From NCBI GenBank assembly GCA_002722245.1, contig PBLA01000033.1, positions 68,813-132,812 on the forward strand: 64,000 bases of DNA, written 5' to 3'. The notes beneath the pieces are model-generated. The model searched no databases. It saw only the letters and a program-made list of their open reading frames with translations, and was not told where the DNA came from. The DNA comes from Flavobacteriales bacterium (GTDB taxonomy: Bacteria; Bacteroidota; Bacteroidia; Flavobacteriales_C; GCA-002722245). The position numbers and the translations under genes were made by a program. How positions within the stretch are numbered: the first letter of the stretch is position 1; each line of letters opens with the position of its first letter. Shown piece after piece: positions 8,386-13,916 of this stretch.

Positions 8386-9494
8386 TTTTGGATTAATTTT
8401 TCCACCTCAATCATTATTAGATCTGCGGCGTTTTCAATTTTTAGTTTCTCAATATTTCGTGTTAAAACAGTTCGTTTTATTTCATCAGAAAGTAATGAGT
8501 CCAGTTCCGTGAATAAACGCTCTTTCGCCTCTGAATCTTTTACCAAAACACCTGCATTATTATTTACAAGGGCCAAGGCATTAGCTGTTTGATGATCTTC
8601 TGCAGCATGAGGAAAGGGTATTAAAATACAAGGTTTACCCACAAGGCTTAATTCAGTTACTGACATGGCTCCAGACCGAGAAATCACGATATCCGCTGCA
8701 GCGTAAGCGAGGTCCATATTGTAAATAAACTCATGCGCTTGGAGTAATTCACTTCCAATAGCCTTTACCCGATCCTGAGATTGGGTTTTATAAAACTTTC
8801 CAGTTTGCCATAAAAGTTGATATTCTTTTTCTACAAATTTTTCCAATACTGCATCAAGTGCATGATTAATACTTCGAGCACCTTGACTTCCTCCAATGGA
8901 TAAAACGATTGGTTTGTCACTTTTTAGATTAAAGTGTTCTAATGCTCGCGCTCTTTTCCCTTCAAGTTTCTGAATTTCCTGTCGAACAGGATTCCCTGTA
9001 ATAACTAGATTATTCGCTTTTGGAAAAAAGGATTTCATCCCTTGAAATGCAACACATACTGTATTTACATGTTTACCGAGTAATTTATTGGTAATCCCTG
9101 GATATGAATTTGATTCATGAATTAATGTTGGTACTTTACTCCATGTTGCGGCTTTCAAAAGAGGGCCACTGGCAAATCCTCCAACACCAATACAAATATC
9201 TGGTTGAAACTGTTTTATGATTTTACGAGCATTCCATAAACTATGGATTAATTTAATTGGAAAAGAGAGGTTTGATAAGGTTAACTTTCTCTGAATGCCA
9301 CTAATCCATAACCCTTTGATTTTGTACCCTGCTTTGGGAACCTTTTCCATCTCCATTTTTCCCTTTGCACCTACAAAAAGAATAGTTGAATCGGGATATT
9401 TTTTTTGAATAGCGTTTGCTATAGCAACCGCAGGAAATATATGGCCTCCAGTTCCACCCCCGCTTATTATAACTCTAGGTGACTGCTTCATCAT
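8382..9494 (-). CDS. murG: Lipid II synthase glycosyltransferase MurG
   Basis: Peripheral membrane GT28 enzyme that transfers GlcNAc from UDP-GlcNAc to lipid I, giving lipid II. The N-terminal GGGTGGHIFPA loop, the central SIGGSQGARSIN motif and the C-terminal EDHQTANA nucleotide-binding motif are all present; 370 residues is usual. The start overlaps the 3' end of ftsW by 20 bases. A second ATG directly follows the first, so the start may be one codon later. Confidence 0.97.
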   Translation of the reverse strand: MMKQSPRVIISGGGTGGHIFPAVAIANAIQKKYPDSTILFVGAKGKMEMEKVPKAGYKIKGLWISGIQRKLTLSNLSFPIKLIHSLWNARKIIKQFQPDICIGVGGFASGPLLKAATWSKVPTLIHESNSYPGITNKLLGKHVNTVCVAFQGMKSFFPKANNLVITGNPVRQEIQKLEGKRARALEHFNLKSDKPIVLSIGGSQGARSINHALDAVLEKFVEKEYQLLWQTGKFYKTQSQDRVKAIGSELLQAHEFIYNMDLAYAAADIVISRSGAMSVTELSLVGKPCILIPFPHAAEDHQTANALALVNNNAGVLVKDSEAKERLFTELDSLLSDEIKRTVLTRNIEKLKIENAADLIMIEVEKLIQK

Positions 9495-10626
9495 TAGAAA
9501 TATTTCGGCTCGTTTCTCGACTTACATTAAGTATAATCCCAATTGAAATTGCTGTAAACCATAAAGAGGTTCCTCCCATACTAACCATTGGAAGCGGCTG
9601 CCCTGTAACAGGAAAAACGCCAACTGCAACAGCCATATTACTAAAGGCTTGAATCACCAGTCCAGAAGACAAACCAATTACTAAAAGGGTAGAAAATAAC
9701 TTGGTACATTTACGTGCTATCTTAATGCTTCTAAAAAACAGAACTAAATACATGATAATTGTAAAAACACCACCAAACAACCCATAATTTCGAAGGATTG
9801 TGGCATATATAAAATCAGAGGCTGCCTGAGGTGGCTGACCATATTTACCAGGCAAAAGATCAAACCACAAACCAACTGCTCCCCCATCATAAATAGAGGC
9901 TTGTGCTAAACTTGTTTGATAATTCCCGCTCCCCGCATTCATATTGTCCGAGGTAAAAGCTGTTAATCTATTTGACCACGTTTGTAAACGTTGTAAGTTA
10001 TCAGGGAAAATTAAAACAGCTATAAGAAACAAACATATTATGGCTAAGAAAATTATTCCAAAATGAGAGAATTTAACCCCTCCAACAAACAGAACTATAA
10101 AGCATCCTCCCATGATTAAAGCTGCTGTAGAAAAATCAGACTTAATAATAAGAGCGCATGTTAAAATAACAGGGAGAAATAAGTGTGTAAGAACTTCTTT
10201 AAAACTGTGTAAACAATCTTGCTTCCTACTGAGTACACGCGCTAAATAAATAGTTAACGAAATTTTTGCAAAATCAGAAGTTTGGAAACTCAATCCAATT
10301 ATTGGAATTTTGATCCATCTTGATGCATCATCAACATTATGACCAGCAAGCATGGTATAAAGAAGCAATGGAATCGTAATGATCATTAATATGAGGGAGA
10401 GTCGGGAAAGATAACCATGCTTAATTTTGGAAAATTGGTAAGCGATGACAAAGGCACTAACCAAAATGATAGCATGTTTAATAACAAAATAGAAAAAATT
10501 CCCTCCTCTCAAAGATGCCAATTGTTCAGTCCCAACGTATACGATAGGAATAGACAAAAGGGCTAGAGATATAATAACACCCCAAATGACTTTATCGCCA
10601 TATATTTTGTTATAAATCCCTTGCAT
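9475..10626 (-). CDS. ftsW: SEDS peptidoglycan glycosyltransferase FtsW
   Basis: Polytopic inner-membrane SEDS protein (383 residues, about ten membrane segments) that polymerises lipid II at the septum together with the FtsI-type transpeptidase. SEDS signatures visible include SDFIYATILRNYGLFGG in the large loop region and PMVSMGGTSLW near the C-terminus. It starts 5 bases after the stop of the 43-residue membrane protein, and its 3' end overlaps murG. Confidence 0.95.
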   Translation of the reverse strand: MQGIYNKIYGDKVIWGVIISLALLSIPIVYVGTEQLASLRGGNFFYFVIKHAIILVSAFVIAYQFSKIKHGYLSRLSLILMIITIPLLLYTMLAGHNVDDASRWIKIPIIGLSFQTSDFAKISLTIYLARVLSRKQDCLHSFKEVLTHLFLPVILTCALIIKSDFSTAALIMGGCFIVLFVGGVKFSHFGIIFLAIICLFLIAVLIFPDNLQRLQTWSNRLTAFTSDNMNAGSGNYQTSLAQASIYDGGAVGLWFDLLPGKYGQPPQAASDFIYATILRNYGLFGGVFTIIMYLVLFFRSIKIARKCTKLFSTLLVIGLSSGLVIQAFSNMAVAVGVFPVTGQPLPMVSMGGTSLWFTAISIGIILNVSRETSRNISNDEAVT

Positions 10627-10631
10627 TTATT

Positions 10632-10763
10632 TTAGAGTAGACCTTTCTTGAACTTCTTGATCACCCACACAATGCTAAAAATTACAAACAACAATATACC
10701 CGACGCAATAATGGAAGCAAGGTGTCTAACCTCATTACTCTTATCTGGTTTTATTTGAGTCAT
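10632..10763 (-). CDS. 43-residue single-span membrane microprotein of the dcw cluster
   Basis: A short uninterrupted frame with an ATG start encodes MTQIKPDKSNEVRHL..., one hydrophobic span of about 20 residues (ASIIASGILLFVIFSIVWVI) and a Lys-rich tail KKFKKGLL. It begins 12 bases after the stop of the detached MurD domain and ends 5 bases before the ftsW start, in the same direction, so it fills the gap exactly. The positive-inside rule suggests the Lys-rich tail is cytoplasmic. I recognise no family. Position suggests a role beside FtsW or the divisome, but that is inference. Confidence 0.7.
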   Translation of the reverse strand: MTQIKPDKSNEVRHLASIIASGILLFVIFSIVWVIKKFKKGLL

Positions 10764-10775
10764 AATTTAATTTAT

Positions 10776-11324
10776 TTATAAACTTCTAACTGCTTGCTTG
10801 AAAGCATTGCCTCTTTCCTCTAAATTTTCAAACATATTAAAACTTGCTGAAGCAGGCGAAAGCAATACAGTTTCTCCTTTGTCAGCAATGTAATACCCCA
10901 TCTGCACGGCCTCTTCCATTGACCCAGCGTCTACAATCATATCTACTTTATCCAAAAAATTCTCGAATATTTTCGATTTGTTGGTACCAATATAAACAAT
11001 TGCCCTCACTTTTTCTTTAGCTAATTGCTGTAAAGTTGAATAATCTACCGTTTTATCCACTCCACCTACAATCCAAACAATTTGTCTTTGCATTCTTTCA
11101 AGGGCGTACCATGTAGAATTGACGTTAGTAGCTTTAGAATCATTGATATATTCAATACCATGAACATTAGCCACAAATTCTAGTCGATGTTCAACATTTT
11201 CAAAGTCACTGAACTTTTCTCTTAAGTTTTCTTTTCTTAAGTTTCCAACGTTCTTTTTTAGGTTTTCAGCCATTGTGTCACCAATGTTTAACCTGTTTTG
11301 AATTTCAAAATTTCCCTTTGTCAT
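10776..11324 (-). CDS. Stand-alone MurD C-terminal domain
   Basis: This 182-residue protein corresponds to the last helix of the central domain plus the C-terminal domain of MurD. By eye about half of ~146 aligned residues match the full MurD encoded just upstream. The ligand-binding motifs are kept: EHR (start of domain), NDSKATN, GGVDK..DY and LLSPASASF..FEN. The P-loop, the carbamylated-Lys region and the whole UDP-binding domain are absent, so it cannot ligate alone. It starts 3 bases after the murD stop, suggesting coupled translation. The first ~30 residues are unlike MurD. It could be a decayed former murD, a regulatory D-Glu-binding subunit, or a structural partner. Confidence 0.8.
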   Translation of the reverse strand: MTKGNFEIQNRLNIGDTMAENLKKNVGNLRKENLREKFSDFENVEHRLEFVANVHGIEYINDSKATNVNSTWYALERMQRQIVWIVGGVDKTVDYSTLQQLAKEKVRAIVYIGTNKSKIFENFLDKVDMIVDAGSMEEAVQMGYYIADKGETVLLSPASASFNMFENLEERGNAFKQAVRSL

Positions 11325-11327
11325 GAT

Positions 11328-12677
11328 TTATTTAAATTTAGCGTTTAGTTTATATATTTCGTGTTTAAATTTTTTTCCTCGATCCTCATAATTCTCAAAT
11401 AAATCGAAACTCGCGCAGGCCGGAGATAATAACACAGTAAATCCTTCCTCAGCCATGGCAGAGGATTTTTGTACAGCCTCGTAAGCACTTCTTGCATCAG
11501 TAATTTGATGAACAATATCTCCAAATACCTCATGTAGTTTCGAATTATCCTTACCTAAGCAAACCATACCATGCACTTTTGATTTTACTAAAGGAAGTAA
11601 TTGAGAATAGTCATTGCCTTTATCCACACCTCCGGCAATCCATATAATTTTATTGGTTATACTTTCCAATGCATAAAAGACACTATCAACATTTGTGGCC
11701 TTGGAGTCATTGATGTATTCCACTCCATTAAGAACAACCACTTGCTCCATTCTATGCTCGATAGGCTGAAAAGACGCTAAAGCAACCATAATATCGTGTT
11801 TGTCAACTCCTAAAACAGATGCGACTGAAACAGAAGCCATTATATTATACGCATTATGTTTACCCTTTAGGGGAATTCTATCAACAGATATCCTCATGGC
11901 TTTGTTAATATCTATGATGATTTCATTCGATTCCAGTCCAATACCGTTCTCTAATGCACCATTTATACTAAAGGCATAGGATAAGTGAGGGCGCTCTGTT
12001 TTATGTAGCTTCGTCACAATATTATGATCATCGGAATTGTAGAAGAAAACAGAGTATTGATCAACGTTTTTTATCAATTGAAATTTAGCATCGATATATT
12101 CACTTAAATTATTATTGTAACGATCAAGATGGTCAGTGGTAATATTTAGCAATATAGATATATCTAATTTTAAGTCAACAATCCCATCCAGCTGAAAACT
12201 ACTCAATTCCAACACATAATACTCGTAATCAGACTTTGCGACTTGAAGCGCAAAACTATCACCTATGTTACCTGCTATACCAACGTTATAACCCGCACTT
12301 TTTAGAATATGGTATACAAGACTTGTTGTGGTTGTTTTTCCATTACTACCTGTTATTCCGATTAACTTCGCTTGAGTAAACCATGAACCAAATTCAATTT
12401 CAGAAATCACAGAAACATCTTGATTTCTTAATTTTTCTACTAAAGGAGTGCGATCGGGAATGCCCGGGCTTTTCACCACAAGATCAGCAGTTAAAATTTT
12501 TTCCTCACTATGACATCCTTCCTCAAAAGCAATATTCTCCTCCAAAAGCAGGTCTTTGTATTTTGTTGCAATCCTACCCCTATCGGAAACAAAAACATCA
12601 AACTGTTCTTGTTTTCCGAGTATAGCAGCACCTACACCACTTTCTCCAGCACCTAATATGACGAGTCTTTTACTCAC
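11328..12677 (-). CDS. murD: UDP-N-acetylmuramoyl-L-alanine--D-glutamate ligase MurD
   Basis: Cytoplasmic ligase adding D-Glu to UDP-MurNAc-L-Ala. The N-terminal Rossmann-like start (LVILGAGESGVGAA), the P-loop GITGSNGKTTTTS near residue 108, EHRMEQV at the start of the C-terminal domain, NDSKATN, GGVDKGNDY and LLSPACASFDLFEN are all present. Length 449 residues is complete. It lies 3 bases from mraY and 3 bases from the duplicated C-terminal domain. Its C-terminal half looks less like typical Bacteroidota MurD than the detached domain does (judged from memory). Confidence 0.95.
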   Translation of the reverse strand: MSKRLVILGAGESGVGAAILGKQEQFDVFVSDRGRIATKYKDLLLEENIAFEEGCHSEEKILTADLVVKSPGIPDRTPLVEKLRNQDVSVISEIEFGSWFTQAKLIGITGSNGKTTTTSLVYHILKSAGYNVGIAGNIGDSFALQVAKSDYEYYVLELSSFQLDGIVDLKLDISILLNITTDHLDRYNNNLSEYIDAKFQLIKNVDQYSVFFYNSDDHNIVTKLHKTERPHLSYAFSINGALENGIGLESNEIIIDINKAMRISVDRIPLKGKHNAYNIMASVSVASVLGVDKHDIMVALASFQPIEHRMEQVVVLNGVEYINDSKATNVDSVFYALESITNKIIWIAGGVDKGNDYSQLLPLVKSKVHGMVCLGKDNSKLHEVFGDIVHQITDARSAYEAVQKSSAMAEEGFTVLLSPACASFDLFENYEDRGKKFKHEIYKLNAKFK

Positions 12678-12680
12678 TTA

Positions 12681-13916
12681 CTATCTCAACTTTAATGTTG
12701 CAATGGCTAAAACAGCCAACAAAATTCCTACAATCCAAAATCTACTTACAATCTTAGCCTCATGCACGCCCGATTTTTGATAATGATGATGCAAGGGCGC
12801 CATTTTAAAAATTCGCCTTCCTTCTCCCCACTTTTTCTTGGAGTACTTAAAATATCCTACTTGAAGAATCACACTTAAATTTTCAACTAGAAATATTCCA
12901 CATAGAACAGGAATTAGTAACTCTTTTCTAATTGCTATAGCAAACGTAGCGATGATTCCTCCAAGTGCTAAACTGCCCGTGTCTCCCATAAATACTTGAG
13001 CAGGATATGCGTTGTACCATAGAAATCCTATGCAGGCTCCTACAAATGCTCCCATGAACACAACTAGTTCTCCTGAATCAGGGATGTACATAATGTTTAG
13101 GTAATCAGCAAAAAACACATTTCCCGAAACATAGGCCAATACCCCTAAGGCTAATCCTATTATTGCTGATGTCCCTGTTGCTAATCCGTCTATTCCGTCT
13201 GTTAGATTGGCGCCATTGGATACTGCTGTAATTATTATAATCACAACTGGAATAAAAATAACCCACCCCCATTTTGCAGCATCTAATCCAACCCACTCTA
13301 CGATTTCACCATAGTTTAACTCATTATTCTTAAAAAATGGTATTGTGGTAGATAATGATTTTTCTTGAACTTTATCAGTGGATTGATTCACATATTTAAC
13401 GCCATCAACTACCACGTGTTGTTGTTCTTTTTTAATTGATCTTTCAATTTTTACATCTTCACTGAAAAATAGCGTGGTACCAACAATAACCCCAATACCT
13501 ACCTGACCCACTATCTTCATTTTACCTTGTAAACCCTCTTTATTCTTTTTAAATACTTTAATGTAATCATCCAAGAATCCAATAAGTCCAAGCCAAACGG
13601 TAGATAATAAAAGCATCAAAATGTAAATGTTATCCAATTTGGCAAAAAGTAATGTTGGAATCAAAATAGCCGCTAAAATCAATAAACCTCCCATCGTAGG
13701 AGTACCAGACTTTTCCAACTGTCCCTCTAAACCTAAATCTCGCACTGTTTCTCCTACTTGAAGTTGGTGTAACATTCGGATAATTCGTTTCCCCAAAACC
13801 ATAGAAATAACCAAAGAGATAATCACGGCAAAAGCTGTTCTGGTTGTGATATAAGTAAACGCTCCCGCTCCAGGGAAATCAATTTCATTTAAGTAATCAA
13901 ATAAGTAGTACAACAT
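12681..13916 (-). CDS. mraY: Phospho-N-acetylmuramoyl-pentapeptide transferase MraY
   Basis: Polytopic inner-membrane enzyme making lipid I from UDP-MurNAc-pentapeptide and undecaprenyl phosphate. The catalytic motifs are present: [38 protein letters not shown] and [10 protein letters not shown]. At 411 residues it is about 50 longer than the E. coli enzyme. The extra residues form a hydrophilic insertion around residues 155-205 ([17 protein letters not shown] region), usual in Bacteroidota MraY. It is one base from the murE stop. Confidence 0.97.

Follow-up and report, generated by a model that had tools for sequence, protein, structure and literature searches.

MurD is essential, has long been a drug target and is usually studied as a self-sufficient enzyme. 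The dcw cluster in the window, i.e. the whole stretch of 64,000 nucleotides analysed here, raises the question of why a complete murD is directly followed by a second, short gene that encodes little more than the C-terminal domain of the same enzyme. This gene and its product, a detached MurD C-terminal domain, are called det in the following. Such proteins form a conserved, apparently undescribed group whose genes lie in the dcw clusters of many Bacteroidia.

The det gene and its predicted product

The dcw segment of the window is encoded on the minus strand in the order mraY, murD, det, a small ORF with one transmembrane (TM) helix, ftsW, murG and murC, followed by ftsA and ftsZ, with the outer gene names assigned by eye. 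murD (11328..12677, minus strand) encodes a full-length protein of 449 aa, in which Pfam detects MurD_N, Mur_ligase_M and Mur_ligase_C, and both the P-loop GSNGKTTT and the C-terminal ligand residues are intact. It begins 3–4 nt after mraY (12681..13916, minus strand) and, with mraY immediately upstream, occupies the usual place of murD in the dcw cluster. det (10776..11324, minus strand) has an ATG start 3 nt after the murD stop codon and encodes 182 aa. It is followed by the gene for the 43 aa one-TM protein (10632..10763, minus strand) and by ftsW (9475..10626, minus strand), the next dcw gene downstream and a fixed neighbour of det across families. The order mraY-murD-det-ftsW-murG is shared by the 10 genomes of the window's family and recurs in many other families, and det still precedes ftsW in one genome with a split dcw cluster (G050).

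The initial annotation had described a short gene matching murD at about half of its positions, and BLASTP agrees with this: det aligns to residues 269–444 of the neighbouring MurD with 46% identity over 176 residues without gaps (E 2e-49). The EHR, NDSKATN, GGVDK..DY and LLSPA.ASF motifs, said to be kept, are all present. Pfam finds only Mur_ligase_C (PF02875) in det, which passes the gathering cut-off (43.4 bits versus 28.4), in line with the proposed loss of the P-loop, the carbamylated lysine and the UDP-binding domain. The NCBIfam MurD model TIGR01087 scores det at 168.7 bits, under its curated cut-off of 211.95. Devoid of the central and N-terminal domains, det falls outside MurD ligases as defined by three domains, a P-loop and a carbamylated lysine. 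Its sequence implies that det cannot be a ligase alone, because it has neither the central domain that binds ATP nor the domain that binds UDP.

The description of det as a C-terminal domain holds for residues 46–182, but not for the first approximately 45 residues, which correspond in a gap-free alignment to the last part of the MurD central domain (from about MurD residue 269). This segment appears to be reworked into a predicted helix, with TKGNFE.Q and MAEN.K conserved in the window's family. In an AlphaFold model based on a 36-row alignment, det is predicted to fold as an intact MurD C-terminal domain, with block-mean pLDDT values of about 80–98 from residue 50 onwards and a low-confidence N-terminal helix. 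The top PDB fold matches of this model are MurDs (Foldseek, E 1.6e-14, MurD C-terminal domain).

Distribution and origin in Bacteroidia

A search of 60 relatives, including nine other members of the window's genus or family, detected an intact det directly between murD and ftsW in 10 of 10 genomes of this family, to which Flavobacteriales bacterium isolate nzgw150 (JAHEZL010000009.1) also belongs. Identity to the window copy is 91% within the genus and drops to 75% for the sister genus. Among 177 surveyed Bacteroidia genomes with a completeness of at least 95%, 50, counted by hand, contain two or more matches. Reading of the loci confirmed det in 16 family codes (f1, f4, f5, f9, f10, f12, f20, f24, f27, f29, f31, f37, f41, f42, f44 and f46), i.e. 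in at least 16 Bacteroidia families; this count leaves aside G029 and G053, whose second matches are unconfirmed at the murD locus. The gap between murD and det is usually 1–45 nt. No detached domain was found in about 50 genomes of the phylum outside Bacteroidia when searched with full MurD, a less sensitive query than a det profile. Among 80 named loci, det is present in 12, all from uncultivated organisms, and the named Pedobacter, Mucilaginibacter, Crocinitomicaceae, Prolixibacteraceae and Chitinophagaceae loci are without it. det is dispensable in many families, which have lost it and possess a normal MurD.

Some loci deviate from the standard arrangement. Extra det copies away from murD occur in f4, f42 and f46. 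In L054, L055 and L057 (f4 and f46), a second, diverged det lies outside the dcw cluster and adjoins an aldehyde dehydrogenase gene; the surroundings of these second copies, read by eye as aldehyde dehydrogenase and a MerR-type regulator, give no clue to function. In a Cryomorphaceae MAG, murD and ftsW are separated by a tandem pair of det genes, both of them strongly diverged (L115:5588-6633). Another MAG (L105, CALPVI020000072.1) is titled Actinomyces viscosus and contains a Bacteroidota-type dcw cluster; the title is probably wrong.

In an outgroup-rooted tree of 170 C-terminal domains, the dets of the window's family form one group (100/100) and join 36 other dets in a single clade (99/90). 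Of the remaining dets, 17 make up a second clade (100/100), and a single one on a long branch is placed elsewhere. In a thinner tree, the window-family det again groups with dets of other families (94/76), and the AU test does not reject a common clade of all dets (p 0.44). A tree of mraY, ftsW and murG confines the det genomes to one large part of the class and requires about ten changes, and for this reason an early gain followed by repeated loss is the simplest reading. Most likely, det arose a single time, early in the ancestry of a large Bacteroidia clade. A partial tandem duplication would be the obvious route, because the stretch homologous to det is the 3' end of murD, and det is the very next gene. 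A duplication private to the window's family would unite its full and detached copies in a joint clade, an arrangement that the AU test disfavours without rejecting it (p 0.093). Read-through past the stop codon of murD was also considered and discarded: murD and det share a frame in the window and in G006, but in the other members of the family they are 8–13 nt apart, which breaks the frame in most of them.

The initial annotation had suggested the opposite history, in which the full-length gene would be a newcomer, acquired horizontally, and det what is left of the murD that the family had originally. Two observations could favour this: a tree of the N-terminal and central domains does not group the two genera of the window's family, and MurDs from one of these genera resemble those of the other no more than they resemble the MurDs of different families. 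However, one clade for the window-family murDs is not rejected (AU p 0.45), murD sits in its normal dcw place, and the C-terminal-domain trees containing both copies place det among the dets of other families and lend no support to a newcomer murD. The claim that det is nearer to typical Bacteroidota MurDs did not hold either: over the C-terminal-domain columns, mean identities are 57.4% for det and 59.1% for the neighbouring MurD, with det being nearer in only 26 of 78 comparisons. A newcomer murD is therefore highly improbable.

Selective constraint and ligand-contact residues

Within the window's family, dN/dS was determined by the Nei-Gojobori method for seven pairs, with synonymous sites near saturation in the wider ones. 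det shows values of 0.011–0.049, below those of murD (0.08–0.16) in every pair. The corresponding ranges are 0.02–0.06 for mraY where measurable, two very short comparisons being artefacts of cut loci, 0.03–0.10 for ftsW and 0.02–0.09 for murG. det thus has the lowest or nearly the lowest dN/dS of the cluster in this family; the closest pair (G001-G004) has slightly smaller values for ftsW and murG than for det. Synonymous change in det is ordinary, which locates the constraint in the protein. Between the genera of the family, det is 80.6% identical over the same columns in which the MurD C-terminal domain reaches 54.2%. The full murD is fast-evolving in this family, and MurDs of the two genera are only about 46–54% identical. 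Among the nine other families compared, the MurD C-terminal domain is better conserved than det in all but f4, where both reach 97%. det is under purifying selection in other families as well, with dN/dS below 1, although the f9 murD starts used in this test are probably too far upstream.

A functionless, decaying duplicate might be suspected from the other-family dets, whose evolution outpaces that of murD and in which D-Glu contacts are lost. This explanation is refuted for the window's family by the low dN/dS and the intact gene in 10/10 genomes, and intact frames, a conserved position and dN/dS below 1 elsewhere leave it a negligible probability overall. The initial view that det is not a dead fragment is thereby borne out, and neither absence or frameshift in close relatives nor a dN/dS near 1, which it had named as counter-evidence, was observed.

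In E. coli MurD, a D-Glu mimic is held by Lys348, Thr321, Ser415 and the Phe422 amide (PMC3527612), K319 is located near ADP (PMC8788868), and Glu recognition is set by K348 and its neighbours (PMC8788868; PMC3527612). In E. coli numbering, the window det retains H301, R302, D317, K319, T321, K348 and S415. Six of these (H301, D317, K319, T321, K348 and S415) are jointly present in all 10 window-family dets, in all 10 MurDs of this family and in 80 of 81 other full Bacteroidia MurDs, and in none of the 54 dets from other families. In the latter, K348 is found in 3/54, K319 in 24/54 and T321 in 35/54, and the structural-looking residues E304, N316, P411 and G426 survive in 52–54 of the 54. The window-family dets are themselves changed at neighbouring positions that are invariant or nearly so in full MurDs (G349T, N350V/I, C413S and D417N). 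Judged by these residues, the window-family det is a site-preserving version, while the other members of the group look like pseudo-domains. Together, they provide a natural series from a copy that preserves the ligand site to copies that lose it.

Possible roles of det and comparison with known systems

The recurrence of this arrangement in at least 16 Bacteroidia families suggests that det is a genuine helper or regulator in the synthesis of the cell wall. Given the retained ligand residues, the earlier proposals that it might regulate or complement MurD, or bind D-Glu, are reasonable. The best explanation is that det acts as a non-catalytic accessory subunit of MurD, a role for which the chances appear about even. 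The conserved gene order, the low dN/dS, the common clade of most dets, the retained ligand contacts and the intact fold speak for it. The C-terminal domain of MurD moves between open and closed positions (PMC3527612), MigC binds and inhibits MurD in Acinetobacter (PMC12208494), and MurG binds Mur ligases as a scaffold (PMC6420597). A free copy of the C-terminal domain could occupy or contact the seat of this domain, keep MurD within a complex, or recruit it to the membrane. det would go back to a single partial tandem duplication, which copied the 3' third of murD early in the ancestry of the Bacteroidia clade, and would since have been retained, though often lost, between murD and ftsW. Presumably co-produced with MurD, it may dock on MurD or on a MurD-containing Mur complex at the seat of the mobile C-terminal domain and there tune D-Glu addition or place MurD near MraY, MurG or FtsW. 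A tethered MurD-det AlphaFold model of 633 residues, in which the murD stop codon was read as Q solely to join the chains, has a pTM of 0.58, a low-confidence linker and no confident docking. The loss of det from many families with a normal MurD also counts against this role. Whether one mechanism is common to all dets is uncertain, because nearly all other-family copies have lost K348.

The one-TM gene between det and ftsW is present in 10/10 genomes of the window's family, and its product comprises 43 aa in the window's genus and 71–92 aa in the sister genus. The other det loci contain no convincing counterpart; three have unlike small hydrophobic ORFs. This protein may anchor det in the membrane or take part in controlling FtsW. 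With its D-Glu and nucleotide contacts kept, the det of this family could thus be membrane-tethered. A more far-reaching and more tentative version of the accessory role is that det is an unrecognised subunit of the precursor machinery, an ancient protein that would bind MurD, together with the membrane-anchored small protein in the window's family, and control or localise D-Glu addition, so that MurD would be a hetero-oligomer.

Other functions have to be weighed against an accessory role on MurD. det could be a scaffold or adaptor for FtsW, MraY, MurG or the small TM protein, with MurD being just its ancestor and operon mate. The constant proximity to ftsW, which persists in G050 although the cluster there is separated from murD, the family-specific one-TM neighbour and the extra copies away from murD are consistent with such a function, but a pure scaffold would not need the D-Glu and nucleotide contacts retained in the window's family, and this reading is rather unlikely. 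The same contacts, conserved in 10/10 window-family dets and including the K348 region that sets Glu recognition in MurD, would fit a sensor or carrier in the D-Glu branch that binds D-Glu, ADP/ATP or the MurD product by itself. This is less probable still, as the site in MurD also needs the central and N-terminal domains, both missing from det, to be complete, the invariant neighbours are changed, and the contacts are lost in other families. A link of det to a missing D-Glu supply was rejected, since a MurI-type racemase occurs both in genomes that carry det and in genomes that lack it.

That det serves as the catalytic C-terminal domain in trans, substituting for MurD's own, is doubtful. Its ligand residues are intact, and it barely changes in a family whose MurD evolves unusually fast. 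However, MurD's own C-terminal domain keeps every ligand residue in 10/10 genomes and there is no sign of its replacement, while it is det in which the invariant neighbours are changed. The accessory-subunit reading is directly testable, because det is small, is predicted to fold alone and is encoded beside its likely partner. A conserved single-domain MurD relative, which in one family is more constrained than the enzyme itself, hints that the cytoplasmic steps of peptidoglycan synthesis have an additional regulatory or structural layer.

No description of a detached MurD domain was found in searches of open-licence papers for duplicated or truncated MurD and for Bacteroidetes dcw clusters. 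det shares sequence, fold and ligand-contact residues with the corresponding domain of the MurD ligase, directly downstream of whose gene it is encoded, but it is devoid of the N-terminal UDP-binding and central ATP-binding domains, remains under the cut-off of the MurD model and carries the G349T, N350V/I, C413S and D417N changes. MurD2 of the alternative MurD2/MurL pathway in Xanthomonas is likewise a MurD relative with a modified glutamate site; it is, however, a full-length L-Glu ligase with Arg at the K348 position (PMC8788868), whereas det is a single domain that keeps the Lys, and the genome encodes a member of the Asp/Glu (MurI-type) racemase family, which places det outside MurD2/MurL. 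If the accessory role applies, det would resemble MigC of Acinetobacter as a MurD-binding adjuster of activity, but MigC is an unrelated COG0523 GTPase encoded elsewhere (PMC12208494), while det derives from MurD itself. MurT-GatD and PAP11, a MurE-like subunit of the plastid RNA polymerase, are distant fold matches of det and exemplify Mur-ligase relatives that act as subunits of complexes, although they are larger, belong to other families, have other partners and are not closely related to det.
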